From a virus, in IMG/VR virus record IMGVR_UViG_3300025154_000362, positions 1 to 25,393 of that record: a stretch of 25,393 bases of DNA. One strand, 5' to 3'. The position numbers were made by a program, and so were the translations under genes. Shown piece by piece: positions 1,589 through 17,422 of this stretch. Under the pieces are notes generated by a model, which saw only the letters and a program-made list of their open reading frames with translations, did no database searches and had not been told where the DNA came from. Position 1 is the stretch's first letter. Each line of letters begins with the position of its first letter.

Positions 1589-4500
1589 AGACATACAGGT
1601 CACCACGCGGCCGCTTGCTTTTTCAGAGCCAAAGCTCTCCAGCGTGCCCGGCGGCATGACCATTGCCGAAGTGGTCCGCGATCATATGCCGGGCGTCGTG
1701 GGGGTCGTCGTCCAACTCAACGGCGAAGTGGTTCCGGCCATCGCCTGGGGCGAAGTGAAGCCGATACCCGGCGACCATCTTTTGATTTACACGGCCTTGC
1801 GCGGCGGCAGAGGCAAGAATCCGGTTGCCATGCTGCTCCAGATGGTCGTGGTGGTGGCGGCCACGGTTTACGGAGGGCCCCTCGGCGGCGCGGCTTTCGG
1901 CGCAATGAACGCGACCACGGCCGCCATCGGCTCGGCGGTTATCATGACGGCCGGCACCTTCCTTGTCCAAGCCATTGCCCCGACCAGGCCGCAGAGCAAC
2001 AAGACCTATTCTTACGAGGACAGTCAAACATACTCCCTTTCAGCCTCACGCAACACCATGGACGCGTGGGGGCCTATCCCGGTCATCTTGGGGCGACATC
2101 TTGTCTTTCCGAAGCTGGGGGCGCCGACCTATACCGAGATCGTCGGACAAGACGAATACCTGCGCATCCTCGTTATATGGGGCATCGGGCCGCTTAAAAT
2201 CTCCAATATCAAGATCGGCGACACGCCGATAAACAACTTCGACGATGTGGAGATCGAGACCCGCTACGGCTGGCCGGACGACACGCCGCTGACGCTTTTT
2301 CCATCGCAGGTGCGCCAAGATCAATACGGCATTGAAATCAGCCAGGCCTCTGGCTGGATAACTCGCTCGGCCATGGCCAACGTGGACGAATTAACGGTCG
2401 GAATCTACTTTAACGCCTTGGTGGAGATCAATCGGAAGACTGCCCAGCGAATGAGTAGGACCGTCAATCTTGAGATCAGGTATCGAGAGGTTGGCGCGTC
2501 AACTTGGACGCCACTCAACGGCACAGTAGACTACGCCGCGGGCTCGATATCCATCACAGACCCCTATATGCTCGGGGCGGACGGCCAGGGAAGTATTTAC
2601 GCATTCGCCAATGGCGCGGTCGGAAACTTCGCCTTCGGCACCATCGGCATGCTAAAGATTGCGACCTATACTTATGAGGTAGGCGACTTCATGGAGGGCT
2701 CGCAGCTTAGCTTTTCAATTACCAGCGTCACCAATCTGCCGAACTCAACCAAAACCGGGCTCGAGTGCTCGCTTTCCGGCAATACCATCAGCTACACCGC
2801 TGGGCATATAGTCTATCCGTCCATTTACTACACGGCCGCCACCCCAGAGGCCCGCAGGTTTGCTTACAACTGGAAGGTAGACCGCACGAAAGCCTATGAA
2901 GTATCGGTGCGGCGCGTGACCGCCGATAGCACCAGCGACTACATTGTGGACAAATGCTATTTGGGCAGCATCACCAGTATTAAATGCGAAAACCCGCTCA
3001 ATGTCGAAGTGCCGGTGGCATGCAGCGCGATCAGGATCAGGGCAACCGGGCAGCTTTCCGGTGTGGTCGATGAGATCAACGGCATCTGCTCCTCATACTG
3101 CCCGCGCTGGAACGGGTCCGCATGGACAACCGGGCTATCGGTGCAGCGCAACCCGGCCGCGCTTTTCCGGCATGTGCTCATGTCCTCGGCCAACGCCAAG
3201 CACCGAACTGCCGCGCAGATCCATGGCGCAGAGCTCGGCCAGGCTTACGCTCATTGCGTAACCGAGGGCTGGACCTTCGATCAGGTCCGCGATTTTACGG
3301 CAAGCGTGCCCGATACCCTAATGGATATCGCCGCAGCAATGCGCAGCTCCATTGCCATCTCAGACGGCCTCTGGTCGATGATTTGGGACCGGGCCGACCG
3401 GCCGATAGCGCAGCACATCACGCCGCGCAACTCCTGGGGATTTTCTTCGGAGAAGGTGCTGATTGATCATCCGCATGCGTTCCGCGTCAAATTTAAAAAC
3501 GAGCTGAATAATTGGGCCTGGGACGAACGGATCGTCTACGCCGACGGCTACAACGCATCGAACGCCACGCTTTTTGAATCCATCGAGTTCCCAGGCGTCA
3601 CGCATCCGGACCTGATTTACAAGCATGCGCGGTTCCACCAGGCCCAGGCGCTGCTCCGGCCGGAGTTCCCATCGGTCTATATGGACTTCGAATCTTTGGC
3701 CTGCAAAAGAGGCTCGAAGGTCGTTCTTTCGTACGATATGATGCTTATCGGAAGCGGCGCCACGGCGGGCCGGGTGAAATCTTTGACGCTGGGCACCGGA
3801 GATGACGACGGCCGGACGCTCGGCTTTGTCTCGGACGAGCTTTTCGTCATGGAGGTCGGCAAAACGTATTGCTGCCGGTTCCGGCTTGCGGACGAATCCG
3901 GATCGAGTCTTTTGCTCACGGTCTCCACGGTAGCCGGGGAAACCGACACCTTTACCTTTGTGCTCGATCCTCCGATTCTGACCACGGTAGGTCCGCAGGC
4001 CGGCGATCTTTTCAGCTTCGGCGAGGCCGGCAGCGAGACCTCCGCGTATCTCGTCCACAGCGTAAACGCTCAAAATGAGTACGTCAGAAAAATCAACCTT
4101 GTGGACGAAGCCGAAGCGATTTACAGCGCCGACACCGGGACGATCCCGGCATATGATCCCAATATCACGGCGCCCATCGATCTGACGAAACTCAAGCCCG
4201 CAGCCCCGACCATCTCCAAGATCGAATCAGGCGAAAAGGCCTTGGAGGTCTCCAACGGCGTGGCCCGGGCCCGCATCTTTGTGACCATCGCGCCGCGCTC
4301 CGGCAACATCCGCGTGCAGACCTACCGGATACGATACCGCAAGCTGGGCGAAGCGGCATGGGCGCAGGTGGATATCGAGGCAGAATCGACATCCACGGCG
4401 GTAATCAATGGCGTGGAAGAAGGCTACCATTATCAGATCCAGGCGGCGGCCATCTCCTATTATGGCGTGCGCTCGCTCTGGAGTTCGGTGATTTCCGAAC

Positions 4501-5630
4501 TGGTCATCGGGCAGACCGAGCCGCCCGATGACGTGGAAGACTTCGCGGTCAACATCATCGGCACCGACGCCCATCTATCATGGTCGCCGGTCGAAAATTA
4601 CGACCTGTCGCATTACCGTATCCGCTGGAGCCCATCTCTTTCCGGCGCGACCTGGGGAACCAGCGTCGATATTATCAAGCGCGTAGGTAAGCCGGCCACC
4701 TCTAAAACTGCTCCGGCGCTGGTTGGCACCTACATGATCAAGGCCGTGGACTTTGCCGGCAACGAGAGCGACAGCGCCGACGCGGTATCCACCAGCATCG
4801 CGCGGATTACCGGGCTCAACGTCGTGGAAACCTTCGAACAGACGCACCCGGCATGGTCCGGCACTCCGGATGGCACCGAAGAGTCATCCGAATACGGCGG
4901 CATCACCATCGCGGCGATCACCTCGGCGGGCTACACCGGGGCGGCCACGGTCCACGATGACAGCTCCGTGGAGTTCTCCGACGAGGGCGGCACGGCCTTT
5001 GACAGCGCAGACCCCACGGAGACCTCGATTGAGGTAGCCAGCGGATATTATGAGTTCGCCAGCTATGTTGACCTGCTGGGCGTTTTCACAAGCCGGCTCT
5101 CCGCATCGCTCACAATCAGCGGACAGGACATTACGGCCGACTTGTACGCCATGGGCGACCTCTATGCTGCCGGCAACCTTTACGGCGCACAGGACGGCCA
5201 ATACTCGGTCTCGCTGGAGGTGGCGACGACCAGCGACGACCCGGCAGGCACTCCGACGTGGAGCGCATGGAAAGGCTTTCTTGTCGGCGACTATACCGCC
5301 CGGGCCTACAAATTCAGAGCGAAGCTTGTCAGTTATGAACCGAACATAACGCCCATTCTGGAGGGCTTTTCGGTGTCGATCGATATGCCCGATAGGCTGG
5401 TAAGGTTCGCCGCAGAAGTCGGCACCAGCGGCGCGAGAGTCGCTTTCAGCCCCGCTTTTTACATCACGCCGGAAGTCGGCTTGAGCGTGCTCGATGGTGA
5501 AGAGGGCGACGCCTACACAATGACAAATTGGGACGAAACCGGATTTGATATTGCTTTCACCAACGGCGGCAGCGCCGTGGCGCGGGAGATTTCCGGCATC
5601 GCCCAAGCATATGGAGAACAGGAAACATGA
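1572..5630 (+). CDS. Tail tip / host-specificity protein J, with gpI-like N-terminus
   Basis: This 1352-residue protein is the central tail tip protein. Residues 1-80 resemble the small ubiquitin-like fold seen in lambda gpI. Residues 83-139 are strongly hydrophobic and Gly/Ala-rich. From residue 145 the classic gpJ core begins, with S-R-N-T-M-D-A-W-G-P-I-P-V-I-L-G-R, EYLRILVIWGIGPL and I-G-D-T-P-I. The tip attachment region is about 527-670, with R-N-S-W-G-F and VKFKNELNNW. Two fibronectin III-like modules follow at about 876-975 and 982-1075, and a variable C-terminal part presumably displays host-contact surfaces. Lambda gpJ is 1132 residues, so this one is longer, in line with an I-J fusion. 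The start is translationally coupled to the NlpC/P60 gene because no good ribosome site precedes it. The stop overlaps the fibre gene as ATGA. Confidence 0.92.
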   Translation: MPKECKDIQVTTRPLAFSEPKLSSVPGGMTIAEVVRDHMPGVVGVVVQLNGEVVPAIAWGEVKPIPGDHLLIYTALRGGRGKNPVAMLLQMVVVVAATVYGGPLGGAAFGAMNATTAAIGSAVIMTAGTFLVQAIAPTRPQSNKTYSYEDSQTYSLSASRNTMDAWGPIPVILGRHLVFPKLGAPTYTEIVGQDEYLRILVIWGIGPLKISNIKIGDTPINNFDDVEIETRYGWPDDTPLTLFPSQVRQDQYGIEISQASGWITRSAMANVDELTVGIYFNALVEINRKTAQRMSRTVNLEIRYREVGASTWTPLNGTVDYAAGSISITDPYMLGADGQGSIYAFANGAVGNFAFGTIGMLKIATYTYEVGDFMEGSQLSFSITSVTNLPNSTKTGLECSLSGNTISYTAGHIVYPSIYYTAATPEARRFAYNWKVDRTKAYEVSVRRVTADSTSDYIVDKCYLGSITSIKCENPLNVEVPVACSAIRIRATGQLSGVVDEINGICSSYCPRWNGSAWTTGLSVQRNPAALFRHVLMSSANAKHRTAAQIHGAELGQAYAHCVTEGWTFDQVRDFTASVPDTLMDIAAAMRSSIAISDGLWSMIWDRADRPIAQHITPRNSWGFSSEKVLIDHPHAFRVKFKNELNNWAWDERIVYADGYNASNATLFESIEFPGVTHPDLIYKHARFHQAQALLRPEFPSVYMDFESLACKRGSKVVLSYDMMLIGSGATAGRVKSLTLGTGDDDGRTLGFVSDELFVMEVGKTYCCRFRLADESGSSLLLTVSTVAGETDTFTFVLDPPILTTVGPQAGDLFSFGEAGSETSAYLVHSVNAQNEYVRKINLVDEAEAIYSADTGTIPAYDPNITAPIDLTKLKPAAPTISKIESGEKALEVSNGVARARIFVTIAPRSGNIRVQTYRIRYRKLGEAAWAQVDIEAESTSTAVINGVEEGYHYQIQAAAISYYGVRSLWSSVISELVIGQTEPPDDVEDFAVNIIGTDAHLSWSPVENYDLSHYRIRWSPSLSGATWGTSVDIIKRVGKPATSKTAPALVGTYMIKAVDFAGNESDSADAVSTSIARITGLNVVETFEQTHPAWSGTPDGTEESSEYGGITIAAITSAGYTGAATVHDDSSVEFSDEGGTAFDSADPTETSIEVASGYYEFASYVDLLGVFTSRLSASLTISGQDITADLYAMGDLYAAGNLYGAQDGQYSVSLEVATTSDDPAGTPTWSAWKGFLVGDYTARAYKFRAKLVSYEPNITPILEGFSVSIDMPDRLVRFAAEVGTSGARVAFSPAFYITPEVGLSVLDGEEGDAYTMTNWDETGFDIAFTNGGSAVAREISGIAQAYGEQET

Positions 5631-6607
5631 GCCAAGTAACAGCCTATACCATATCACCGGCACCGCTTGAGATGGCGCAACTCGCCACCGAACTCGAAAA
5701 CCTCTTTGCGGCCGTCGGCAGCGCGAACCGGGGCGGCACGGCGCCGGCAAATCCATTTGACGGCATGCTCTGGTGGGATACATCGCTCGACCCCGTGGAG
5801 TACTTGCAGCGCTATTCCACGACGGCCGGGTGGGTGTCTTTGCTTTCGATCAACACCACAACAGGCGCGATAACCTTTCAAGGTGCCGTGGCGGCCGACT
5901 TTGCAAAGCTGGTGGCCGTCGCCGGGACCGCGATTGTGGACACCACGACCGCGCAGAACATCGCCGGGCCGAAGACTTTTACCGATGGCCTGGTGGTCGA
6001 AGGTGGCCCGCTAAAGATATCTTCCACTTCTTCGGTGGCTCAAATTACAGGCAAAAACACGGCCAACACCGTGACGGCTATTTATGCTGGTGGCTACACC
6101 TCCGCCGGCGATTCAGGGCTTATTCAGATTTACTCCAAAGATCACGCCACGCAGGCCGGAAAAATTAGACTTTACGGCACTGACGGTTCGACGTACGCCC
6201 TTGGCGCAGAGGTGCTCACAGACGGAAAAGTCAATCTCCCGGTCGGCTTGCAGATCGATGGGGTTGATATGCCTGCACCGCCCACCTATACGTCGTTTAG
6301 CCCTGGAGGAGATTTAGCAGGGACGGTTCATATAGCAAAATATGGCAGATTAGTCACCATGACCTGGTATAGCTTGACGCACGCGAGCAGCTATACTGCT
6401 GGGTCTGCTGCTGCCGTCATACCTGCTGCATACCGACCTCATGATTGGTTTACAAATTGCTATTCTGGATCGGGCGGGGTTAATAGGCAAATAATCATAT
6501 ACGACTCTGGCCTATTTACATTCGCATATTACGACACGACCGATGGTGGCGGACATGCGGATACAAATACAGGCAATGGTTCTGTTTCTTGGGTATCCGC
6601 AAGCTAA
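5627..6607 (+). CDS. Tail fibre protein
   Basis: The product is 326 residues without a signal peptide. It starts MSQVTAYTISPAPLEMAQLA, followed by a P-F-D-G-M-L-W-W-D-T-S segment of the kind found repeatedly in phage fibre shafts. Next come beta-rich, Thr/Ser/Gly-rich sequence (Q-N-I-A-G-P-K-T-F-T-D-G, a widespread fibre-shaft phrase) and a C-terminal knob beginning about residue 220 with KYGRLVTMTW and A-V-I-P-A-A-Y-R-P. That knob pattern recurs in receptor-binding ends of tail fibres. It overlaps the J gene by four bases, as expected for a fibre attached to the tip. It is the last gene in this direction whose N-terminus looks cytoplasmic; all six inferred downstream genes carry signal peptides. 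Confidence 0.85.
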   Translation: MSQVTAYTISPAPLEMAQLATELENLFAAVGSANRGGTAPANPFDGMLWWDTSLDPVEYLQRYSTTAGWVSLLSINTTTGAITFQGAVAADFAKLVAVAGTAIVDTTTAQNIAGPKTFTDGLVVEGGPLKISSTSSVAQITGKNTANTVTAIYAGGYTSAGDSGLIQIYSKDHATQAGKIRLYGTDGSTYALGAEVLTDGKVNLPVGLQIDGVDMPAPPTYTSFSPGGDLAGTVHIAKYGRLVTMTWYSLTHASSYTAGSAAAVIPAAYRPHDWFTNCYSGSGGVNRQIIIYDSGLFTFAYYDTTDGGGHADTNTGNGSVSWVSAS

Positions 6608-6632
6608 AATAATAAACCGAAAAGGTGGCAAA

Positions 6633-7097
6633 ATGAAAAAAGCAATCACTCTTCTTCTGGCCCTGGCCCTTCTTCCCGGCATGGCTTTTGCCGCCGGATC
6701 TTCTCCGGCTACGCAATACATGCTTTCCGCCGATAAAAACCAGCTTGTGATTAAGCTGGCGTGCGTCGGAGATGCCGACAATGGGTCTATCCCTGCCAAG
6801 ACGATAAATGAGGCGGCCATCAGCGCTGGTCTGCCGAAAGAGTATCAGGCGATGGGGTTTTATCTGACCGGCGTGCATGTGGTGGTCGGGACGACCGCCC
6901 CCGATGCCGCAGACATCGCCATCACCGATGCCTTGGGAGTTACCCTTTACTCTCAGGCCAGTATTATCCCGACGAGCGGCACAGCCAAGGGCACGGTGCC
7001 GAAAGCGGAGCCGGTGAACTCGGTGCTCACGGTGACGGTGGCGAATCAGGCGACGGCGAGCGCGACCTATGACATCTACATCAAATTGGGCCGGTAA
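6633..7097 (+). CDS. Secreted small protein in the fibre module
   Basis: I start this 154-residue protein at ATG 6633, not at an upstream ATG at 6543, because AAAGGTGG at 6620-6628 sits at the right distance and the protein then opens with a textbook Sec signal: KK, a leucine-rich core and Ala-Phe-Ala before residue 21. The mature part is Ala/Thr/Val-rich and predicted all-beta. It contains YLTGVHVVVGTTAPDAADIA and ends TYDIYIKLGR, which suggests a small beta-sandwich. I do not recognise a named family. It is separated from the preceding fibre gene by 25 bases and from the next secreted protein by nine, so it belongs to the same transcript. A role as exported or surface component is inferred only from the signal peptide. 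Confidence 0.75.
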   Translation: MKKAITLLLALALLPGMAFAAGSSPATQYMLSADKNQLVIKLACVGDADNGSIPAKTINEAAISAGLPKEYQAMGFYLTGVHVVVGTTAPDAADIAITDALGVTLYSQASIIPTSGTAKGTVPKAEPVNSVLTVTVANQATASATYDIYIKLGR

Positions 7098-7106
7098 GAG
7101 GTGACC

Positions 7107-9221
7107 ATGAAAAGACTGATCTTTGTTTTCGCAATTCTGGCGGCTTGCTTCGGGCAGGCCTTCGCGCTGCCTCCTGATGGGACCGGCGGGTGGGCGGATG
7201 ATGGGACCACGACGAGCACGGATAGGGCCGTAGTTATAGGGCAAACGGGGTCTATCTCAGAAGAAACCAACACCATGACGCTGGATGACGGCGACGGCCT
7301 GCCGATTACGTTGCAAGAAATCCGCAGCGCTACAGGCGGGGCCGATACCGCAGCTATCCACGACAACCAGGCCAGTGAGATCAGTGCGATCACGGCCAAG
7401 CCTACGCCCGCCGATGCTGACTACCTGCTGATTGAGAGCGCGGCCAACTCAAACGCCAAGCGCAGCCTTACGCTTACCAACCTTTGGGCGAATTTGTTCA
7501 AAGGTAAGGCTGATGCACTCTACGAACCGGACATAACATCTTCCACCGACCTGACCGTTGGCAGCTTGACGGCATCCGGGGCTGGCGGTCTGGCCATCGG
7601 CGCTGCCGGAACTACGCTCGGCACGGCGCGCTGGTACACAAATGTTGCCGAAAACGTCTACCGCTTTGACCTCTTCGCTTCTGATTTTACACAGAATTGG
7701 GGTATTAGGTGGCAGACCGGCTATCCGCTCGAAAACGGCGGGCTTTTTACAGTCGACACCACCGGGACAGGCACTTGGAGTTACCAAGGCGTTGATCCTG
7801 GCGACCTGCTACTACTGCCCGCTGATCCCGCTGCTCATACGCTTTTCGGCTTCGACAATACGACGAACACTTACAAGCCATTTGCTATCGGCACCGGGCT
7901 TTCCTTCGACCAGGCTACCGGGACGCTTTCTTCGACGGGTGGGGTTGGCGATGACCTGGGCAGCGCGGCCTACTCCGATGTCGTGGCGCTCTGGACAACC
8001 TGCTCAAGCGGGTTTTTGAAGTATGACGGAACATGCGAAACGCCAACTGGCGCAGCACATGACGCCCTGACGCTCGGGTCCACGCTTTCCTCGATATTTA
8101 GCCTGACCGGCCAAGAACTTGGTCTGACGGCATGGCCCACGTTCAACCAGAACACGACCGGAACCGCAGCGGGGCTTACCGCGCAGTATATCGATTGGAA
8201 CGCTGCCTCTGGTGGAAACAGCATAGCGAATAAGCCGACCCTGCTGGTTATTGACAACACGCCGGACAACGGTGGGGCCGATGCTGCTGGTGAAGATTGG
8301 GCATACGATCACGTTGCAGCCGCTGACCCCCACACCGGCTATATGCTCGAAAGCAACATCGGATTTGGGGCAAGCAATTATCTACAGTTGGCGGCATCCC
8401 CTGGCACTCCTGACGGAACGAAGTTTTTAAGAGATGACGGCACCTGGCAGGCTACCGCAGGCACCGACACCATCGGGTGGGACTACACGGCGCTTACCGC
8501 CGCCCCTGCATCGCCAGTTACCGGAAAAGTCTATCGAGCCGACAATGACACCTGGGACCCAATCACCTATGACGGGACCACGGACTACTTCGTCCTTTAT
8601 ACCGGCTCGGCTTACATCGGGATCGTGGACCTGGCCGGAAACCTACTGATTGAGGGCGTTCCTCTTGCGTCGATAGACGGTCTTGGAACCGGCATCGCAA
8701 CCGCTCTTGCCGTAAACGCTGGCACGGCTGGTGCTCCAGTGATAAACGGCGGCGCTCTCGGCACGCCCTCAAGCGGCACGCTGACGAACGCCACAGGGCT
8801 TCCGTTATCTGGCCTGGTAGATTCCACATCTACGGCTATCGGCGTGGGATCGGTAAACGTCGGCCATGCCAGCGACACCACCCTTGCGAGGGCGTCTGCT
8901 GGAGTTCTTACCGTCGAGGGCGTAACTCTCACCCGCACCATCGCCAGCGGGACTTCAGCCCTCGGCACCGCAGAAATCGCAAGCGGTGCTTGTGCTACGG
9001 TTGTAACCACAGCGGCAAGTGGGGTAGCTACCACGGACGCGATCATGTGGGGATGGAATACCCGGCCAAGCCAAATCACAGGGTACGGCTATACTACGTC
9101 AGGGGCGCTTCGTATCGACGCTTACCCGACTGCGAACAACATTAACTTCGAAGTGTGCAACCAGACGGCGGGCGCAATCACTCCCGGCGCGGTGACGCTG
9201 AATTGGAGGGTTGTGCGATGA
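7107..9221 (+). CDS. Large fibre-like protein with Sec signal peptide
   Basis: This 704-residue protein combines an N-terminal Sec signal (KR, hydrophobic core, Ala-Phe-Ala ending at residue 20) with a body that looks like a tail fibre. Fibre-type phrases include LTLTNLWANLFKGKADALY (about 115-135), F-G-F-D-N-T-T-N-T-Y, PHTGYMLESNIGFGASNYLQ and GTKFLRDDGTWQ (about residue 440). The C-terminal part ending A-G-A-I-T-P-G-A-V-T-L-N-W-R-V-V-R resembles a terminal domain I associate with fibre-like proteins from uncultured phages. ATG 7107 is chosen over GTG 7101 because AGAGGTG lies just upstream of it. The stop overlaps the next start (ATGA). A signal peptide is unexpected for a cytoplasmically assembled fibre. 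Confidence 0.82.
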   Translation: MKRLIFVFAILAACFGQAFALPPDGTGGWADDGTTTSTDRAVVIGQTGSISEETNTMTLDDGDGLPITLQEIRSATGGADTAAIHDNQASEISAITAKPTPADADYLLIESAANSNAKRSLTLTNLWANLFKGKADALYEPDITSSTDLTVGSLTASGAGGLAIGAAGTTLGTARWYTNVAENVYRFDLFASDFTQNWGIRWQTGYPLENGGLFTVDTTGTGTWSYQGVDPGDLLLLPADPAAHTLFGFDNTTNTYKPFAIGTGLSFDQATGTLSSTGGVGDDLGSAAYSDVVALWTTCSSGFLKYDGTCETPTGAAHDALTLGSTLSSIFSLTGQELGLTAWPTFNQNTTGTAAGLTAQYIDWNAASGGNSIANKPTLLVIDNTPDNGGADAAGEDWAYDHVAAADPHTGYMLESNIGFGASNYLQLAASPGTPDGTKFLRDDGTWQATAGTDTIGWDYTALTAAPASPVTGKVYRADNDTWDPITYDGTTDYFVLYTGSAYIGIVDLAGNLLIEGVPLASIDGLGTGIATALAVNAGTAGAPVINGGALGTPSSGTLTNATGLPLSGLVDSTSTAIGVGSVNVGHASDTTLARASAGVLTVEGVTLTRTIASGTSALGTAEIASGACATVVTTAASGVATTDAIMWGWNTRPSQITGYGYTTSGALRIDAYPTANNINFEVCNQTAGAITPGAVTLNWRVVR

Positions 9222-9994
9222 AAAAGATAATCCCTTTCATCGTCGCCTTGGTTGCGCTGGCTGCTATTGCGTTCGCCAATCAGGGTTCATGGCCGGTACC
9301 TGGGCCTGGTGGGACATTCGCATCTTCTTCTTCCTCCTCCTCTTCGTCGAGCAGCTCGGGCGGAGGCCCGATAGCCTTCCCTGTTGCAGCGACCAGCGAC
9401 TATACAACAAGCACATCTGATACCGCCTTGAGCGTTCCGGTTCCAACAGACACCGCAAGCGGAGATTGTCTAATTTTCTTCGGTGGAGAAGTTGGCGGGA
9501 GGTCGCTATCTCCCCCGGCAGGAGTAACGCAAATTGCAACCGCAACCGCGAACAGCAACGCCTATGTGTGGTACAAAAAAGCAGGTGCGAGTGAGTCAGC
9601 GTTCGCATTTACCGCCTCTGGCAACTATGCATATGCGTCAGTAATGGCCCTTCGTGTAACGGGCGCGGTTTGTGATTCAACCTCTGATTTCACCGTCACG
9701 GTTGGGGGTAGCGGATCAAGCTCAAATGTTGCGGTTTGCCCGAACATAACAACCCCGCAAGATACCATGGCGGTGCTATGGATGGAAATCTCGGAACCAG
9801 GATCAACCAGCGACAGTAACAGCCGTGGCGGGGCCACCGAACTCTATGACATGACGGGTTCTACTACCGGGGCGCATCTGAGTTTGTGGTCTGAAGCGAT
9901 AGCGACCGCAGCCACACTAACTGGCGCGCAAATAACAAAGTCAGCGTGGAGCGGTTATAACTCATTTTCTTTAGGGATAAAGACGCAGCCATGA
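9218..9994 (+). CDS. Secreted beta-sandwich protein with poly-Ser linker
   Basis: The 258-residue product starts at ATG 9218, eight bases after GGAGG. The signal peptide ends Ala-Phe-Ala at residue 20. A proline/glycine-rich stretch follows, then about a dozen consecutive serines (residues 36-47), the kind of flexible linker seen in exported polysaccharide-active proteins. The remaining ~200 residues are beta-rich, with a D-C-L-I-F-F-G-G-E-V-G-G segment, SPPAGVTQIATAT and Y-V-W-Y-K-K-A-G-A-S-E-S-A-F. This pattern (binding-sheet phrases of the type 'D-x-L-x-x-x-x-x-x-x-x-P-P-A-G-W-T-x-I') occurs in phage tail and surface proteins with jelly-roll domains. It was probably secreted or surface-anchored. 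Its stop overlaps the next start by four bases. Sugar binding is an inference from the fold-like pattern. Confidence 0.75.
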   Translation: MKKIIPFIVALVALAAIAFANQGSWPVPGPGGTFASSSSSSSSSSSSGGGPIAFPVAATSDYTTSTSDTALSVPVPTDTASGDCLIFFGGEVGGRSLSPPAGVTQIATATANSNAYVWYKKAGASESAFAFTASGNYAYASVMALRVTGAVCDSTSDFTVTVGGSGSSSNVAVCPNITTPQDTMAVLWMEISEPGSTSDSNSRGGATELYDMTGSTTGAHLSLWSEAIATAATLTGAQITKSAWSGYNSFSLGIKTQP

Positions 9995-10800
9995 TTAAAT
10001 ACCTGCTTGCGCTATTGCTAATATTTCCGGCTATGGGCCTTGCCGATACTCATTATGTTGGCAAAACCAATGCGGCGAATACCGGCACTTGCACCAACCA
10101 GGCGACGCCATGCGCTACCATCGCTTACGGCATATCACAGATGGCCGGGGGCGACACTCTTATTGTCGGAAACGGCACCTATACCACGACAAATGATGTT
10201 ATCCGTGATCCACCGAATGGAAGTGCCGGTGCCTATACTACCGTGCAAGCCGAAACAGATTTTGGAGTATTACTGGACGGAACATCCTGGGGTAACAGTT
10301 CGTGGGTTTACGGACTACGCCTGGATGGAAGAAGTTATGTCAAAATCCAGGGGTTTCGCATAAATGCAGCCCAGAACGATACAGGCGGGCCATCGTTCAT
10401 CGGAAGCGGCTCTCATCACATAAAAATCATTAAATGCGGCTTCTGGAATGGTCCCGTTGACGGCAACGGAGAAATCACAGGAGTGGGAGACAGCAGCGGA
10501 AGCGACGCAAACTACATCTTATTTGAGGACTGCTATGCTTTCGGTGGCAGCCGAGCCGGTTTCACTGCATACTGGTCGAACCATGTAATTTTCAGGCGGT
10601 GCATAGCACGGCACGGCCGGATTATTACCATTTCGATCTTCAAACATCTGGGTTTTGCAACTACGATAGCGAAGCGACTGTCTACCAAAACAACATTGTT
10701 GTTGACATGGCAGGCGGGTCTGCGACCAGCCCATCATTACAAGTCTATTCTCCTTTTTTCTTTGAAAACAAAAGCGACCATGAACCAAACACTTCGATAG
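9991..10800 (+). CDS. Secreted right-handed beta-helix protein, N-terminal part (frameshifted)
   Basis: The frame opens with a signal peptide (M-I-K, hydrophobic core, Gly-Leu-Ala at 16-18). The next segment, PCATIAYGISQMAGGDTLIV followed by G-N-G-T-Y, is typical of the first rungs of parallel beta-helix (pectate-lyase-like) proteins. Rungs continue through V-K-I-Q-G-F-R-I, H-H-I-K-I-I-K-C-G-F and HVIFRRCIARHG (about residue 205). After that the frame loses the pattern and ends at TAG 10798-10800. The helix continues in the -1 frame (10599-11762). I read both parts as one gene of about 590 codons. Such proteins act as polysaccharide lyases or depolymerases, or as surface adhesins. No catalytic residues can be assigned. 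The DNA is visibly richer in A+T than the tail genes. Confidence 0.7.
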   Translation: MIKYLLALLLIFPAMGLADTHYVGKTNAANTGTCTNQATPCATIAYGISQMAGGDTLIVGNGTYTTTNDVIRDPPNGSAGAYTTVQAETDFGVLLDGTSWGNSSWVYGLRLDGRSYVKIQGFRINAAQNDTGGPSFIGSGSHHIKIIKCGFWNGPVDGNGEITGVGDSSGSDANYILFEDCYAFGGSRAGFTAYWSNHVIFRRCIARHGRIITISIFKHLGFATTIAKRLSTKTTLLLTWQAGLRPAHHYKSILLFSLKTKATMNQTLR

Positions 10801-11762
10801 AAATGCATGGCAATATAGTCATAAATAACAGTTCCTATTACGGCGCTGTTTATGATCAAGTTCCGGCAGACACAAGGGTATTCCGTGACAATATTCTTTG
10901 GGGCAATTCAGGAGGGTTTCAGGCCGGTGATTATCAAAACGGGGAAACATTCTACCCCCCGACCTATGATATTCAGCGATTGACCAGTGGGGCAAATAAT
11001 CGTCCATACGATCATTGGAACGATAACTTTGACCATAACGCCACATATGCGGGCGGTGACGGACTTGCTGGCGCTGGAACCGGGATGTCTATCATCCTGA
11101 ATCGGACTAACACCGTGACAAATTCGCTGTTTTACGGCAATCAATCCTATGGAGCAGCGGACTATATAACCAGCAATTACAATGCCTTCTACGGTAACGG
11201 TGCCAATTTCGGCGGACTCCATACCTCTTCTGCCGGTGCAAATGATATTACTACCCACAACATTTTGTACCACCCGACGACAAACCCGACCGGAAGTCTA
11301 AAGTACCTCCCACGCGGTGCCGAAGATGGATCAACTCTGGCCACCGCTGGCTCATCTGGCGGTCGTGTAGGTGCTCAAGTTTTATGGAAGATCGGCGTTG
11401 ACGGCACACTCTACGGTGAAACCGGATGGGACACTGTTAGATCACCTGAAAACGGGTATGGCGGGGCAGAAGATAGACTCTGGCCCTTCCCCAACGAAGC
11501 TCAGATCAAATCCGATATGGCAAGCTATAGCGGCGCTGGACTTTCCGGCGCGAGAGGCTTTGCGGCCAGCGGGACGCAGCTTGACGGGACAAGCCAAATT
11601 ACTTTGAGCAGCTACATTTGGGAGTACTTGGGAAATCAGATGCCGGATGATCTTTACGGAGATGCGGAACCTCCAGCGCCAGGTAACCTTATGCAGCCTG
11701 TTCGTCAAACCGGGGGCACAGGCGTGTCGCGGATCAGCGGCGGGATGACGGTCGGGCAGTAG
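10599..11762 (+). CDS. Beta-helix protein, C-terminal part in the -1 frame
   Basis: This open frame (free of stops from 10527) continues the upstream beta-helix: GFCNYDSEATVYQNNIVVDM, then M-H-G-N-I-V-I-N-N-S, V-F-R-D-N-I-L-W-G-N-S and NTVTNSLFYGNQSYG are successive helix rungs with asparagine turns. The nominal start is a GTG at 10599 without a convincing ribosome site, which argues against an independent gene. Joining it to 9991-10800 needs one base gained or a -1 ribosomal shift, and the whole then divides by three (1772+1). The C-terminal stretch is a more compact region with P-L-W-P-F-P-N-E-A-Q-like character and ends G-G-M-T-V-G-Q. Product role as in the N-terminal part: a probable exported polysaccharide-binding or -degrading helix. 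Confidence 0.65.
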   Translation: MHSTARPDYYHFDLQTSGFCNYDSEATVYQNNIVVDMAGGSATSPSLQVYSPFFFENKSDHEPNTSIEMHGNIVINNSSYYGAVYDQVPADTRVFRDNILWGNSGGFQAGDYQNGETFYPPTYDIQRLTSGANNRPYDHWNDNFDHNATYAGGDGLAGAGTGMSIILNRTNTVTNSLFYGNQSYGAADYITSNYNAFYGNGANFGGLHTSSAGANDITTHNILYHPTTNPTGSLKYLPRGAEDGSTLATAGSSGGRVGAQVLWKIGVDGTLYGETGWDTVRSPENGYGGAEDRLWPFPNEAQIKSDMASYSGAGLSGARGFAASGTQLDGTSQITLSSYIWEYLGNQMPDDLYGDAEPPAPGNLMQPVRQTGGTGVSRISGGMTVGQ

Positions 11763-11805
11763 GGCCGCAATGAACTGGATTACGCACCTTGAGAAGGGAA
11801 AAGAT

Positions 11806-13158
11806 ATGAAAAGACTGACCACAACCATCTGCGCCATTCTGCTCTCGGCCATCGCCGTCTCGGCAGCCATGGCCGCCTACTACTCCAAGCCCATCAAATA
11901 CGCCTGCTCCTCTCTCACGGGCGGCGCCACCGGCTCGCTCGACAGCCTGGCGATAGCCGGCGGATCGCCGAACCTCTACGAACTCGCGGACGGCGACAGC
12001 GCAACGGTTACGATCATCTCGGGCACCTCGGCCACCACTTATGAGTACGCCTTCGACGCCGACGGCACGTCCGCGGAATCATCCCCGACCGTCATCAGGC
12101 CGAACGATTACGCCACGGCCGGAGTGTGGCGCCTATCCCTGTTTGACTACCGGGCGATCCCCGACCTCAGTTCTTCTTACGACCCTGCCGGAACCTCTGC
12201 CGCAGGCGTGGCCGCCCACGCTGCTGACACCGACCTGCACAATGGCACCTGTACGCCGGCAAGCGGCGACTGCGGCGCAGAGCTTACCTGCAACACCCTG
12301 GCCGTGGCATCCTGGCCGGACCCGACCATGGACGGCGAGATCCGATGCTTTACCAGTGGCGGCGAAGTCACATACTACCGCTGGAACGGCGAAGATTGGA
12401 TAGAGTTGGCATCCGGCTCGTTCGCCTTTGATCCCTACCCGGCCTATGAGGATTCAACATACTCCTCTGGCATCGCGGCCAATGCGACGACCTTGGCGAT
12501 TTACAGCGTGGCGGAATCCAAGTGGCTGACCGCAGCGCTCACGGACTCACTGGGCCCCGAACCGACTGCAACGCCAACGCCCACGCCAACCCCGACGCCC
12601 ACGCCGTCTTTCGCGGCTTCGGACGATTTCAACCGGGCAGATTCCAACACGCTCGGGGCGCTCTCTGGCGGCACCTACACATGGACCGAAGTCTTTGGCG
12701 ATATCGACATTGAGACGAACCGGGGCGGCCTGGGCACTGCTGGGGCGGCTGGCGCGGTGATCGGTGTGGACAGGGCCACCGGCTGGCTTCAATCGACAGT
12801 GCGCGCCGAAGGGTCCGCTTTTTCCAACCCGGGCTTGATGTTTTGGGAGGTCGATTCGTCCAACTATTGGTACGCAGCTCTTGACCCTGATGACCCAGGC
12901 GGCAATGACATCGAACTGCATCAGGTCGTGGCGGGAGTTGACACAGAGTTGGCCGACGCTTCTTTTTATACCGGCATCGATACGGCCTACACGCTAAAGG
13001 TGACCTTCGGCGCATCGTCGGTTGTCGTTCAGATCGGCGGGACGACCTACATCACGCATAGCGGCAGCTTCGGCAGCAATACCGGCGACCTTGGTATCTA
13101 CCAAAGCAGAGGCGGCGGGGCCACCGGCTGGAACGATGACTTTGCGGCGGGAGAATAA
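11806..13158 (+). CDS. Secreted two-domain protein with Thr-Pro linker and ConA-like domain
   Basis: I start at ATG 11806 (450 residues), preceded by AGAAGGGA, instead of ATG 11770, because the Sec signal then begins the protein (KR, hydrophobic core, Ala-Met-Ala at 21-23). Residues 24-250 form an N-terminal region with WPDPTMDGEIRCFTSGGEVT and Y-Y-R-W-N-G-E-D-W-I-E-L, reminiscent of fibre head-binding or appendage phrases. A TP linker occupies about 256-267. From about 270 to the end is a concanavalin/laminin-G-like domain opening D-D-F-N-R-A-D-S-N-T-L-G with GLMFWEVDSSNYWYAAL in the middle, a pattern used for sugar binding or glycoside hydrolysis. The gene lies 43 bases after the beta-helix stop. 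Carbohydrate binding is inferred from the fold. Confidence 0.78.
   Translation: MKRLTTTICAILLSAIAVSAAMAAYYSKPIKYACSSLTGGATGSLDSLAIAGGSPNLYELADGDSATVTIISGTSATTYEYAFDADGTSAESSPTVIRPNDYATAGVWRLSLFDYRAIPDLSSSYDPAGTSAAGVAAHAADTDLHNGTCTPASGDCGAELTCNTLAVASWPDPTMDGEIRCFTSGGEVTYYRWNGEDWIELASGSFAFDPYPAYEDSTYSSGIAANATTLAIYSVAESKWLTAALTDSLGPEPTATPTPTPTPTPTPSFAASDDFNRADSNTLGALSGGTYTWTEVFGDIDIETNRGGLGTAGAAGAVIGVDRATGWLQSTVRAEGSAFSNPGLMFWEVDSSNYWYAALDPDDPGGNDIELHQVVAGVDTELADASFYTGIDTAYTLKVTFGASSVVVQIGGTTYITHSGSFGSNTGDLGIYQSRGGGATGWNDDFAAGE
12571..12606 (+). repeat. Thr-Pro linker codon repeat (first copy)
   Basis: Twelve codons alternate ACN and CCN, encoding six Thr-Pro pairs between the two domains of the secreted protein. 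The same type of repeat occurs at 14246-14320 in the next gene, which makes the two sites potential recombination points. Confidence 0.85.
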
Positions 13159-13159
13159 T

Positions 13160-14368
13160 ATGAAGCGAATAGCAATCGCACTCGCGGTCCTTCTCTTTGC
13201 CGCCAACGCACTCGCGGCCCCGAGCATTACGGGCGTCACCGGAGATCCATCGAACGGACAACCCGTCGTGATCTATGGCGCGGACTTTGGCACCGGGAGC
13301 ACCGTCATTTCTTGGGATGACTTCGAAGCGCATACTGTTGGCGCCACTATTGAATATAAAACGCCGATTGTAGGCCCAGCCTGGACGCTGTTCCGTCTTG
13401 CCCCCGAAACCGACTTTGTGAATGTTGAAGACGATTATGCCCACTCAGGAGAAAAATCTGTAAAAATCGAGTGGACCGACGAAACCATAAACTCGTTCGG
13501 TTGGGCTGGACGCGGGCCATACACTCAACTGTATTACACTTTCTGGCACAGAGAGGTTTTCCCTGGAAGCATTACATCTGCAAACCGCAAGCTGGTTTTT
13601 ACATATGGAAATGTAGCATCTTGCGGAGAAACAACAAACGCCCCAAATGGCATCCCCTTAATTCCAGAAGGCAATAACGTATGGGGATTCTACCCCAACA
13701 ACAGCACACAGCAGCCAAATTGGTCGGGCATGAACAATATGTCCAGCAATACCACCTATGGCACCGGAAACACGCTATATTACAGCCAGACGCTGAACCG
13801 TTGGGGGCGATGGGAATACTACCAGCAGTTAAATGACCCGTATAACTGTACGGTTAATGTTAACTGCAACGGAGTGCTTGAGTACTACTATGACGGCGTA
13901 AAGCGTTATTACCGGGACGACTATAAACACACGTTTTGCGATGGGGAATACACCGATATCCGCTTTGGACAGATGTTCCAAGGTCACGTTGACAATCAAA
14001 CTTTCGCCTGGTTTGATGACGTTTGCATTCTATCATCAAGGGCCCGAGTGGAACTCGGCAACGCTCCGACCTGGGCCGCATGCACCCGCCGTGAAATCCA
14101 GCGCCACACCGCTTGGGGCGCGACCATCGCCGTGACGGTCAACACCGGGGCCTTTGCCGATGGTGCAACCGCCTACCTCTACGTGGTAGATTCAAACGGC
14201 GTGCCGAACGCGGGAGGATACCCGGTTACCATCGGGACCGGATTCCCCACGCCGACGCCCACGGCAACCCCTACACCTACGCCAACACCCACGCCGACAC
14301 CATCACCGACCCCGACCCCCGGGCCGGCGACGAAATCGCACTTTAACGGCGGAAAGGCTTTGAGATGA
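13160..14368 (+). CDS. Secreted IPT/TIG plus jelly-roll-like protein with C-terminal Thr-Pro tail
   Basis: ATG 13160 follows GGGAG (13149-13153) and opens with a signal peptide ending Ala-Leu-Ala at residue 19; upstream starts are rejected. Residues 20-60 (P-S-I-T-G-V-T-G-D-P-S-N-G-Q-P-V-V-I-Y-G and ADFGTGSTVISWDDFE) look like an IPT/TIG Ig-like module leading into a lectin or lyase-type jelly roll. The jelly-roll part contains H-S-G-E-K-S-V-K-I-E-W, QLYYTFWHREVF and DIRFGQMFQGHVDNQTFAWFDD (cited in two parts by position about 275-300). Residues 363-387 are a Thr-Pro tail followed by only 15 residues, so a module after the linker may be missing. The product is 402 residues, exported, function unknown; a polysaccharide-binding role is plausible. 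Confidence 0.75.
   Translation: MKRIAIALAVLLFAANALAAPSITGVTGDPSNGQPVVIYGADFGTGSTVISWDDFEAHTVGATIEYKTPIVGPAWTLFRLAPETDFVNVEDDYAHSGEKSVKIEWTDETINSFGWAGRGPYTQLYYTFWHREVFPGSITSANRKLVFTYGNVASCGETTNAPNGIPLIPEGNNVWGFYPNNSTQQPNWSGMNNMSSNTTYGTGNTLYYSQTLNRWGRWEYYQQLNDPYNCTVNVNCNGVLEYYYDGVKRYYRDDYKHTFCDGEYTDIRFGQMFQGHVDNQTFAWFDDVCILSSRARVELGNAPTWAACTRREIQRHTAWGATIAVTVNTGAFADGATAYLYVVDSNGVPNAGGYPVTIGTGFPTPTPTATPTPTPTPTPTPSPTPTPGPATKSHFNGGKALR
14246..14320 (+). repeat. Thr-Pro linker codon repeat (second copy)
   Basis: Twenty-five codons, mostly CCN and ACN with one GCA and one TCA, encode a Thr-Pro tract near the C-terminus of the preceding protein. It is longer than the copy at 12571-12606 and shares stretches of near-identical DNA with it. 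Confidence 0.85.
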
Positions 14369-14637
14369 CCGACCTCGTGGAAGCACTCGGAAAGCTGCTC
14401 GGACTGCTGCTGGCCTTTTTCGGCATCACCAAATGGGTCAACCATGCCCTGGAAAAGCGCGTCACGGCCCTTGAAGCCAGCCCGCCAAAAAGAGAAGTGG
14501 CCGAGTGCCAGCGGCTGCAAAACTCTTGCTCTGTGGCCGTGCGCCTGGGCGCCGTGGAAAAGCAGAGCGACGGCCTCACTGATTGGCTCAAGCGAATAGA
14601 AGCGAAGCTGGACAGGCTGATTGAGAAAGGTGATTGA
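14365..14637 (+). CDS. Small membrane-anchored coiled-coil protein, possible lysis accessory
   Basis: The 90-residue product has one hydrophobic helix (about residues 8-22, L-G-L-L-L-A-F-F-G-I) followed by an amphipathic, charged region with heptad-like spacing ending LKRIEAKLDRLIEKGD. Such N-terminally anchored coiled-coil proteins sit in lysis or late modules of many phages and can resemble XhlA-type holin partners, but I cannot name the family. The start overlaps the stop of the secreted protein (ATGA), so it belongs to the same late transcript, and GGAAAGG lies upstream. Topology would place the coiled coil either in the cytoplasm or the periplasm. Confidence 0.65.
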   Translation: MTDLVEALGKLLGLLLAFFGITKWVNHALEKRVTALEASPPKREVAECQRLQNSCSVAVRLGAVEKQSDGLTDWLKRIEAKLDRLIEKGD

Positions 14638-14639
14638 CC

Positions 14640-14840
14640 ATGGACCAGGCCCGCACCGACCGCGTCAAAACGCTCCGTGAAGTGCTGGCCGACATCGAGG
14701 CCAAGTGCGCGGCCTGCCCGATACCGAGTACAGTCTTTTGTAATGAGGGGTGCCTTCTGCCGGCCGCCCGGGTTGTGGCCGAAACCGAATTAAGAGATTG
14801 CGGGGAGTACGTCCATGCTCTGGATAAAACCAACCTGTAA
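14640..14840 (+). CDS. Small Cys-rich protein
   Basis: The 66-residue protein begins at ATG 14640, seven bases after AAAGGTGA; TTG at 14634 is less likely. It contains a helical N-terminus (TLREVLADIEAKCAACPIP) and four cysteines at 23, 26, 34 and 38 that could bind one zinc ion. I do not recognise a named family. It starts two bases after the previous stop and overlaps the next small gene by 26 bases, in line with dense late-operon packing. Confidence 0.6.
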   Translation: MDQARTDRVKTLREVLADIEAKCAACPIPSTVFCNEGCLLPAARVVAETELRDCGEYVHALDKTNL

Positions 14841-14991
14841 ATGCTGCGGGCGCAAGATGAAATTCAAGGCCGATACCTGCCCGGTTTGCACGGCGCTGTG
14901 CGGGATCGAAAAGAAGGTGCCGGGGATACTTCAAAAGGTACTCGAATACCTGGAAAAGAATATCGGGAGACGCGATAATGCCAAAATTTAG
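14815..14991 (+). CDS. Tiny zinc-ribbon-like protein (58 residues)
   Basis: ATG 14815 follows GGGGAG at 14801-14806 with good spacing. The product has CKCCGRK at residues 8-14 and C-P-V-C-T-A-L-C at 22-29, then a helical C-terminus GILQKVLEYLEKN. Two CxxC-type pairs separated by about ten residues form a plausible zinc ribbon. It overlaps both neighbours (26 bases upstream, 14 bases downstream), typical of tightly packed phage genes. No function can be assigned; a DNA- or protein-binding role is a guess. Confidence 0.6.
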   Translation: MLWIKPTCKCCGRKMKFKADTCPVCTALCGIEKKVPGILQKVLEYLEKNIGRRDNAKI

Positions 14992-15280
14992 CGCGGTTGA
15001 ACTCAGCAAGATCGAAGACAGGAAGGGCATGGCCTTTCAATGCCCAGGATGCGGCTGCGCCCACTTCGTGCAGATCAATCCGAAGTTTAGCCCCTGCTGG
15101 CAGTTTAACGGAGACGTTGAGCGACCAACGGTATCCCCAAGCATCTTGGTTAAAACCAGATGGGCCGACGAGCACAAGGTTTGTCATTCTTTCGTTAAGG
15201 ATGGCCAGATTCAATTCCTGGGCGATTGCACGCACGCCCTGGCTGGCAAGACAGTGGAAATACCGGATTGGGAAGACTAA
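14978..15280 (+). CDS. DUF6527 family protein
   Basis: This 100-residue protein carries the signature of the DUF6527 family: a C-P-G-C-G-C motif at 22-27, CWQFNGDVERPTVSPSILV (about 40-58), H-S-F-V-K-D-G-Q-I-Q-F-L-G-D-C-T-H-A-L-A-G and a short end. Members occur widely in tailed phages and prophages and have sometimes been mislabelled as ammonia monooxygenase. The cysteines and histidines suggest metal binding, but the biochemical role is unknown to me. GGGAGA at 14964-14969 precedes the ATG. It lies between the tiny zinc ribbon and the holin-like gene. Confidence 0.8.
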   Translation: MPKFSAVELSKIEDRKGMAFQCPGCGCAHFVQINPKFSPCWQFNGDVERPTVSPSILVKTRWADEHKVCHSFVKDGQIQFLGDCTHALAGKTVEIPDWED

Positions 15281-15308: not shown

Positions 15309-15977
15309 ATGATTTCAGGATGGAAAACCAAATGGGGATTGATCATCGGCACGATCGGCGGCGGACTCATGGCCGGGGCAATGGTGGCCCCCTCGCCGGA
15401 TCTTGAAAAGTGGTGCATGTTCATCGGGATCAATCCCCACATGGCCACCATCGGCGGCGGCGGCGTGGGCCTGGGGGTTGCGCACAAGGTGGAGAAGTCA
15501 AGCTCTGCCCCGGCAACGATCAAGGAGCCGCCCTCCATCCTGGGGAATTCAGGCGCAGCGGCGCAGTCTGTTATGGTACAATTGTTTGTATGGGTGCTTC
15601 TTGCCCTGGTTACCGCATTCTGGTGCGTTGTTGTTTTCAACGGCTGCGCTCCCCACAGGCCCGCCACGCAGCAGATCGCCGCGCAAACGAGCAACCCCTA
15701 CCACCTCGCGCAAGCGGTCTACCTTGACGCCCTGACGGCCTACAACGAGAGCTTGAAGGTATATCTGCCCTATCGGGACCTTGCCGAAAAAAGCAATCCG
15801 GCGGCCGCGGCACGCATCAAGGAGGCCTTCGCCATGGCCGACGGCATGCTGGCCGATTTCAAGGGCTTGGCGGCGCTCGGAAAATACCGGGAGATGGACG
15901 CGGATACATTCCGGGCGCTGCTGCGCGACATCAGCATTGAGGTGGCCATGGCCATCGATTCGAAAGGGGGCAAGTGA
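15309..15977 (+). CDS. Holin-like protein fused to lipoprotein-like domain
   Basis: I start at ATG 15309 after AAAGG (222 residues). Residues 8-27 and about 46-60 are Gly-rich hydrophobic segments, as in small phage holin-like membrane proteins. Residues 90-113 (FVWVLLALVTAFWCVVVFNG then Cys) look like a lipoprotein signal with a non-canonical lipobox F-N-G-C. The remainder, N-P-Y-H-L-A-Q-A-V-Y-L-D-A-L-T-A-Y-N and a helical repeat-like C-terminus, matches a kind of short phage lipoprotein I know as a separate gene. An internal ATG at 15573 (residue 89) could start a free lipoprotein, but it has no clear ribosome site. A role in lysis is suggested by position only. The stop overlaps the next start. 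Confidence 0.6.
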   Translation: MISGWKTKWGLIIGTIGGGLMAGAMVAPSPDLEKWCMFIGINPHMATIGGGGVGLGVAHKVEKSSSAPATIKEPPSILGNSGAAAQSVMVQLFVWVLLALVTAFWCVVVFNGCAPHRPATQQIAAQTSNPYHLAQAVYLDALTAYNESLKVYLPYRDLAEKSNPAAAARIKEAFAMADGMLADFKGLAALGKYREMDADTFRALLRDISIEVAMAIDSKGGK

Positions 15978-16810: not shown

Positions 16811-17422
16811 ATGGGCAAAGAAATCGTTCCGGTAAACTTCGACTTCAACGGCTCCAACATCTCAACGATCATCGACGGCGGCGGCGACCCATGGTGGATC
16901 GCCAAGGAGGTTTGCGACGTTCTTGGCCTGACAAACCCGACCGAGGCGTTAAGGTCTCTGGATGACGATGAAAAAAATACCCTAAGGATTACTGAGGGTA
17001 TTCAGGGCAACCCCAACAAGGCCATTATCTCCGAATCCGGCCTCTATTCTCTGATCCTCCGCTCCCGCAAACCAGAAGCCAAAGCGTTCAAAAAGTGGAT
17101 CACCTCCGAAGTGCTGCCGACGATCCGCAAGACCGGGGCATACGCTGCCGACGAAGCTTCGCGCCTCAAAGCCCTGAACGACCCCTCCAGCCTGCGCGAA
17201 GCGCGCCCGAACGATCTATTTAAATGGATGAGCGAAAACAAATGGATTTACCGGCGCCCGGGTGGAAAGCAATGGCTTGGATACCAGGACAAGGTGCAGC
17301 AAGGGCTCATCACTCATAAGGTCCACACCGTGTTGCAGCCCGACGGAACGGACAAGATTTATGAGCGCGTTCTGATTACTCCTAAGGGAGTCACCAAAAT
17401 GGCGGCGCTCCTGAAAAACTAA
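16811..17422 (+). CDS. BRO-N / KilAC-type phage antirepressor
   Basis: From ATG 16811 (after AAAGGAG) the product is 203 residues. Residues 5-112 form a BRO-N domain: P-W-W-I-A-K-E-V-C-D-V-L-G-L, LDDDEKNTLRI, I-I-S-E-S-G-L-Y-S-L-I-L-R-S-R and KAFKKWITSEVLPTIRKTG are the standard blocks. The C-terminal part (about 133-203, D-L-F-K-W-M-S-E-N-K-W-I-Y-R-R and L-I-T-P-K-G-V-T-K-M) is a KilAC/ANT-type domain. Such proteins, exemplified by P1 Ant and P22-like Ant, interfere with phage repressors or bind DNA. Position directly after the HTH gene supports a regulatory role in the lysis-lysogeny or early switch. Confidence 0.92.
   Translation: MGKEIVPVNFDFNGSNISTIIDGGGDPWWIAKEVCDVLGLTNPTEALRSLDDDEKNTLRITEGIQGNPNKAIISESGLYSLILRSRKPEAKAFKKWITSEVLPTIRKTGAYAADEASRLKALNDPSSLREARPNDLFKWMSENKWIYRRPGGKQWLGYQDKVQQGLITHKVHTVLQPDGTDKIYERVLITPKGVTKMAALLKN

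Follow-up and report, generated by a model that had tools for sequence, protein, structure and literature searches.

The stretch of DNA analysed here (the window) is a 25,393-bp fragment from IMG/VR (record IMGVR_UViG_3300025154_000362) of an HK97-like siphophage, and the element in question is a cassette of six adjacent genes, g7 to g12 (6633-14368, plus strand), each of which begins with a predicted Sec signal peptide. The cassette occupies the receptor-binding-protein position, after J, a tail tip/central fibre protein (1572-5630; phrog_31, E=2.7e-102; Pfam FNIII-A_GpJ, E=2.9e-15), and g6, a fibre-like gene (5627-6607), both of them on the plus strand and without signal peptide. It is co-directional with the tail genes, and stop and start codons overlap in the pairs 7107/9218, 9218/9991 and 13160/14365. 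A near-identical longer contig, IMGVR_UViG_3300025010_000107 (44,491 bp), served as the source for the remainder of the genome, where it contains genes for terminase (phrog_9), portal (phrog_12), head protease, capsid (phrog_10), tape measure and a DnaB-like helicase.

The first gene of the cassette, g7 (6633-7097; 154 aa), has its signal at 6633-6692, with predicted cleavage at MKKAITLLLALALLPGMAFA^AGSS and a signal score of 46, and gave no match to Pfam or PHROG. It is followed by g8 (7107-9221; 704 aa), which encodes a mosaic fibre-like protein whose signal (7107-7166) would be cleaved at MKRLIFVFAILAACFGQAFA^LPPD, and by g9 (9218-9994; 258 aa; signal 9218-9277, cleavage MKKIIPFIVALVALAAIAFA^NQGS, score 55), which has a Ser-rich linker and a body predicted to be jelly-roll-like, and which weakly matches a signal-bearing gene in L067, one of the related loci that are given L numbers here. 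The product of g10 (9991-11762; signal 9991-10044, cleavage MIKYLLALLLIFPAMGLA^DTHY) is a predicted right-handed beta-helix. Its frame is split in the window by a 5-bp tandem duplication, GCACG (10606-10610), which is absent from the longer contig, where the open reading frame is intact (588 aa); the duplication is either an assembly variant or a population variant. Then comes g11 (11806-13158; 450 aa; signal 11806-11874, cleavage MKRLTTTICAILLSAIAVSAAMA^AYYS, score 47), with a Thr-Pro linker, a C-terminus predicted to be ConA/LamG-like and a homologue in L012 (E=1e-35). Finally, g12 (13160-14368; 402 aa; signal 13160-13216, cleavage MKRIAIALAVLLFAANALA^APSI) consists of an N-terminal domain that is IPT/TIG-like by sequence, a ConA-like core, a C-terminal beta domain, a Pro-Thr linker and a short C-terminal tail. 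A Pfam scan of g7-g12 detected neither a peptidoglycan hydrolase domain nor a spanin, so the cassette is not of the SAR (signal-arrest-release) endolysin or spanin type; the endolysins of related cassettes are separate genes located 3'.

Signals were called with a self-written scorer of the n-, h- and c-regions. Each of the six N-termini shows one or two Lys/Arg residues, a hydrophobic core and an A-x-A-like site, and the scorer was positive for 6/6 cassette genes, compared with 0/47 other genes from this phage and the longer twin contig. Two controls were used: shuffling residues 2-45 of the cassette proteins gave 3.4% positives, and among 41 proteins of E. coli K-12 the scorer flagged yaaX and yaaI, which look truly exported, the polytopic NhaA and one false positive, carB. 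The six signals are unlike in sequence, yet all of them have n-, h- and c-regions, and none of the cassette proteins in the window has a lipobox. Several signal-less homologues start with Met followed by the mature N-terminus (MATYYV in L069 and L075 against A^ATYYM/V; MPPSIS in L142 and MATPVI in L152 against ALA^APSI), which at the level of sequence supports the predicted cleavage sites. ALA^APS was taken as the site in the gene at 13160, where the scorer places it two residues early (ANA^LAA), because the signal-less homologues begin there; in g7 the alignment with signal-less relatives was too weak to locate the boundary. The sequence-only reading of this DNA had described six consecutive genes opening with clear Sec signals, preceded by an ordinary fibre gene and joined by co-directional overlaps. 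The signals, the signal-less fibre gene and the overlaps hold, and so do the six signal-bearing starts, with the correction that the duplication breaks the frame of the gene at 9991, which is intact in the twin contig.

Structure models were obtained for g10, using the intact copy from the twin contig (which was also used for searches), and for g12. The g10 model, with a predicted local distance difference test score (pLDDT) of 83 and a predicted template modelling score (pTM) of 0.87, is a right-handed beta-helix with a disordered tail of 30 residues. Its Foldseek matches include GH136 lacto-N-biosidase, the pectate lyase Pel9A, PL6 alginate lyases and chondroitinase B, AlgE epimerases, V. 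cholerae RbmB and a tailspike, with TM-scores mostly of 0.3-0.5, which define a fold class rather than a family. On this model g10 is a polysaccharide-lyase-like beta-helix. By sequence, assignment to PL6 found no Pfam lyase family, only a sub-threshold Beta_helix, and the profile match to a PL6 entry of the PDB covers a short stretch (E=0.005). Besides, residues E179, R202, R207 and D209 are invariant across 36-37 diverse g10 homologues, as would be expected of an active site. In the g12 model (pLDDT 75, pTM 0.76) the ConA-like core is closest, according to Foldseek, to TtX122, Cip1, a glucuronan lyase and alginate lyases. Both proteins combine an export signal with Foldseek matches to polysaccharide lyases or carbohydrate-binding modules, and their models agree with the beta-helical and ConA-like bodies that had been proposed from the letters.

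The conservation of g12 can be followed in L014, whose protein is 88% identical to that of the window in the mature part, with a non-synonymous divergence (dN) of 0.084 and a synonymous divergence (dS) of about 1.6; in the signal codons dN is 0.37 and dS 1.2. Purifying selection on the gene is strong, and its signal has been kept through saturating synonymous change. Portal and capsid of L014 belong to phrog_156 and phrog_334, instead of phrog_12 and phrog_10 as in the present phage, so one and the same protein, including the mature N-terminus, is used by phages whose heads differ in type.

Exported cassettes are not restricted to this phage. IMG/VR was searched with g8, g10, g12 and the C-terminal domain of g8, which yielded loci from many distinct phages, and 83 uncultivated contigs were assessed. 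The longest run of adjacent signal-bearing genes was at least two in 51 of them, at least three in 33 and at least four in 11; conserved runs in homologous phages, which had been put forward as a check, are thus present. All the g8 homologues with an intact N-terminus were signal-positive (11/11 phage contigs), and so were 24 of the 31 evaluable contigs carrying the g8 C-terminal domain by the scorer, and two more, L204 and L212, look positive by eye; g8 is the family hallmark of the cassette. In L004 and L006 it takes a lipoprotein form, with lipobox MFGC and mature start CVGLKYN. An LSGC lipobox followed by C-V-G-L-K-Y-N, as in L004/L006, is found in L012 and L015, where g8 is probably a lipoprotein too. 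In these two loci (L012, 9824-12862; L015, 1763-6028) the g8 homologue is apparently fused to, or overlaps, a holin-like membrane segment that precedes the lipobox, a possible link between a lysis gene and an exported fibre. T7-like or internal-virion-protein genes in vir555, L012 and L139 indicate that cassettes also occur in podovirus-like genomes. One of these, Caudoviricetes sp. vir555 (BK063671; L021/L022), is a complete podovirus-like genome with five to six signal-bearing genes after the tail fibre (38140-43780), and its recorded host, Methanomicrobiales, fits oddly with its T7-like genes. Short glycine-rich C-terminal tails placed after linkers were observed in g10, in g12 and in cassette proteins of L003, L005, L010, L014, L015, L021, L073, L076 and L139. 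They often end in R, Q or K (SRISGGMTVGQ, HFNGGKALR, ISGGTIR, YQSGGMTGQ, GMGGGVWR, FGAGKFQ, TRSMGAKPGLLP) and could be attachment or sorting tails.

No match to the g8 C-terminal domain was found in 50,697 GenBank phage records, and the GenBank phages contain essentially no relatives of g8 or g12 and one of g10. Signal-bearing genes after J were considered as a general trait of J-carrying prophages, and this was rejected: 20 J loci of Pseudomonadota were fetched and no cassette was present where J was recovered, several of the contigs ending soon after J. Cultured relatives of J in L079, L081 and L082 have no signal-bearing genes in the fibre position, and only L080 has them. The closest of the Pseudomonadota loci, L116 (J 46% identical), has a g6 homologue after J and nothing exported; the cassette thus resembles an accessory block that was inserted behind g6.

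Signal state also tends to be shared within a locus. Upstream neighbours have a signal in 37 of 43 cases beside a signal-bearing g10 or g12 homologue and in 4 of 32 beside a signal-less one (Fisher p=1e-10, an indicative value since the rows are not fully independent), and the four exceptions flank L136 and L158, whose own signals were missed by the scorer. Because the state of the neighbours follows that of the focal homologue, the signal appears to be a trait of the cassette as a whole.

Cellular relatives give another indication of function. Of the five cellular g12 homologues examined, two come from the sample around a Deltaproteobacteria metagenome-assembled genome (MAG) and the other three from that around a Betaproteobacteria MAG; all five lie among genes of glycosyltransferase or exopolysaccharide (EPS) type. 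In the two Deltaproteobacteria-sample loci the neighbours match the XrtA/PEP-CTERM models PrsT, PrsK and PrsR and, more weakly, the exosortase-associated ligase. Most cellular g10 homologues have signals, and some of them are near sugar-nucleotide, glycosyltransferase-type/surface-polysaccharide or PEP-CTERM-like genes, as judged by eye. The cellular relatives of the cassette proteins are, to judge from their genes, secreted, and this kinship points to exopolysaccharide.

Directly 3' of the cassette there is g13 (14365-14637, plus strand), a small gene for a protein with one membrane helix and a coiled coil, which has a homologue in L068 and is the probable start of the lysis region. No excess of promoters was detected across 5400-15100 (3 found against 5.3 expected). 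Window and twin contig differ at two further places: at 17198-17203 the window is short by about 120 bp inside a Bro-N/KilA-like gene, and at 15433-15439 there are six additional bases in a lysis-region gene. A pentapeptide-repeat-like gene that is internally repetitive is located at 17589-18065, and a gene outside the cassette (19081-19737) contains an internal lipoprotein-like start, VARLVVALMVAGLLFGCAGW, and may encode a shorter exported lipoprotein. As for the host, J, TerL and the nearest phages suggest a proteobacterial one and nothing narrower; a prophage-based host search in 784 genomes of two phyla, made without positive control, gave no match to the g8 C-terminal domain.

The explanation preferred here, to which about an even chance of being correct is given, is that the cassette encodes late-expressed, Sec-exported glycan-acting proteins that bind or cut the host matrix around lysis. 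We infer actual export, substrate, enzymatic activity, timing, benefit and host, and the events would be as follows. The host Sec pathway would export the products of a late-operon cassette, namely the mosaic fibre-like g8 with its partners g7 and g9, and the glycan-acting g10, g11 and g12, where g10 would be a polysaccharide-lyase-like beta-helix and g11 and g12 ConA-like lectin or lyase proteins. Late in infection the mature proteins would gather in the periplasm, with lipoprotein variants at the outer membrane; host type II secretion, lipoprotein anchoring and crossing only at lysis are the candidate ways across that membrane. The targets would be exopolysaccharide or surface glycans of the host itself, acted on at lysis and shortly before it, and with the matrix stripped or masked the progeny would be neither trapped nor wasted on debris. 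Late expression is supported by the co-direction with tail genes, by the overlaps between members and by the GH108 or M15 endolysins that lie within a few genes 3' of the cassette in four relatives (L005, L010, L014 and L020). Several points weigh against this explanation. Lysis would free soluble proteins anyway, and release alone gives no need for earlier export; g7, g9 and g11 have no assigned family or activity. Cysteine content, tried as a sign of an oxidising compartment, was equal in signal-bearing and signal-less g10 homologues and provides no disulfide argument. In addition, signal-less members of the g10 and g12 families occur in other phages within blocks of head-tail genes, probably as parts of the virion.

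The sequence-only reading had started from the point that a whole exported run is not explained by the usual assembly of tails in the cytoplasm, and the signals in 6/6 genes bear this out. It had then offered host-surface or exopolysaccharide modification, receptor masking, released depolymerases and periplasmic or extracellular assembly without choosing among them. Action on exopolysaccharide or the cell surface is favoured here because of the EPS-cluster kin, the polysaccharide-lyase-like folds, the g8 lipoproteins and the sharing of g12 by phages with differing head and packaging genes. Assembly of the virion outside the cytoplasm is a real rival, even if rather unlikely: the six, as genuine tail fibres or receptor-binding proteins, would undergo export and periplasmic processing and would join the virion once the inner membrane opens at lysis. 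The position after J and g6 and the modular, mosaic make-up of the cassette would suit such a role, as would the signal-less g10 and g12 relatives in head-tail blocks (for instance L069, between capsid and connector genes) and the Bradyrhizobium phage ppBdUSDA122-1, related in J, where one of the two signal-bearing genes after J encodes a tail fibre with a Collar domain. Nevertheless, full-length g12 at 88% identity in a phage with other head and packaging genes, no evident tail-specific anchor, the membrane-anchored lipoprotein form of g8 in some phages and the secreted EPS-cluster proteins as closest cellular kin speak against it, and we know of no tailed phage that assembles in this way. 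The wider proposition that some tailed phages finish their virions outside the cytoplasm, with a Sec-secreted fibre set attached at lysis and the exported or cytoplasmic state switching per cassette, is doubtful.

It is improbable that the cassette proteins act by coating or blocking surface receptors, in a manner similar to T5 Llp but built from receptor-binding-type modules, so that superinfection is excluded and progeny is spared adsorption to debris. Llp is an exported lipoprotein that stops superinfection as well as adsorption to the fragments left by lysis (PMC9586334). The lipoprotein forms of some g8 homologues would fit, and fibre-like or lectin-like modules could bind glycan receptors, but the window proteins lack a lipobox, masking would not require several proteins per cassette, among them an enzyme-like beta-helix, and the shared direction with tail and lysis genes points to late expression, while Llp is made early. 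Least credible, and indeed very improbable, is that the hydrophobic N-termini are non-working signals, inherited from host genes or used otherwise, in six ordinary virion proteins assembled in the cytoplasm. Since the cellular g10 and g12 relatives are secreted, the signals could be a leftover of gene capture; this fits poorly with six differing sequences that all keep the three regions, with the retention of the g12 signal despite saturating synonymous change, with the segregation of signal-bearing and signal-less states by cassette and with the signal-positive state of every retrieved g8 homologue with an intact N-terminus.

Cassettes of late-expressed, exported glycan-acting proteins, as preferred here, can be compared with several known systems. 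WceF from Pantoea stewartii is an exported enzyme of an EPS operon with a tailspike-like right-handed beta-helix that acts on the producer's own exopolysaccharide (PMC7949094). It parallels g10 and the EPS-cluster kin of g12, but it is a single cellular gene product with a Tat signal, whereas the cassette is viral and multi-gene, is predicted to use Sec and has phage lysis genes nearby. Phage tailspikes and depolymerases, such as the Dettilon tailspike and beta-helices of PL6/GH136 type, share with g10 the fold and a probable glycan target. Tailspikes are not known to have an export signal and possess a virion-anchoring head; in the cassette, by contrast, every member has a signal and a search for a tail-specific anchor found none. 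Exported phage proteins include lambda Lom and the Cor type of N15 and HK022, and some of the phage proteins exported to the envelope are encoded near tail genes. T5 Llp is likewise a phage protein exported to the host envelope (PMC9586334). Llp, Lom and Cor are single small proteins with an outer-membrane protein target, whereas the cassettes consist of 2-6 adjacent, mostly large glycan-type proteins; those of the window have 154-704 aa and no lipobox, in contrast to small outer-membrane lipoproteins of the Llp/Cor type, and lipoprotein forms exist only in some g8 relatives. In phages of Porphyromonas gingivalis the products of several genes of unknown function are predicted to leave the cell by the host's secretion pathway and to alter its outer surface, and in the portion of that report considered here they are not described as fibre-like, glycan-active or forming a contiguous cassette in the tail position (PMC10367356).

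A further parallel is ppBdUSDA122-1 (L080, OP596612; 10359-14440), where two signal-bearing genes immediately follow a related J and one of them has a Pfam Collar domain. These are annotated only as tail fiber protein and hypothetical protein, and the phage did not appear among the relatives of g8, g10 and g12; the host of this phage is known, and it is a candidate experimental model for exported tail fibres. Single exported phage proteins and signal-bearing phage genes of unknown function are already known. A search of the literature outside subscription papers found no description of contiguous cassettes of exported fibre-type or glycan-acting proteins in tailed phages, and a demonstration that the virions are assembled outside the cytoplasm would make the finding new in category. 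The trait is present in about 50 of the retrieved uncultivated contigs and the g8 C-terminal domain is unmatched in GenBank phages, so exported cassettes may be widespread in nature yet poorly represented in culture. The paired signal-bearing and signal-less homologues constitute a natural experiment on where phage fibres act. Besides, the cassettes offer candidate enzymes and lectins for use on environmental exopolysaccharides, among them matrices of the XrtA/PEP-CTERM type, whose degradation is little known.

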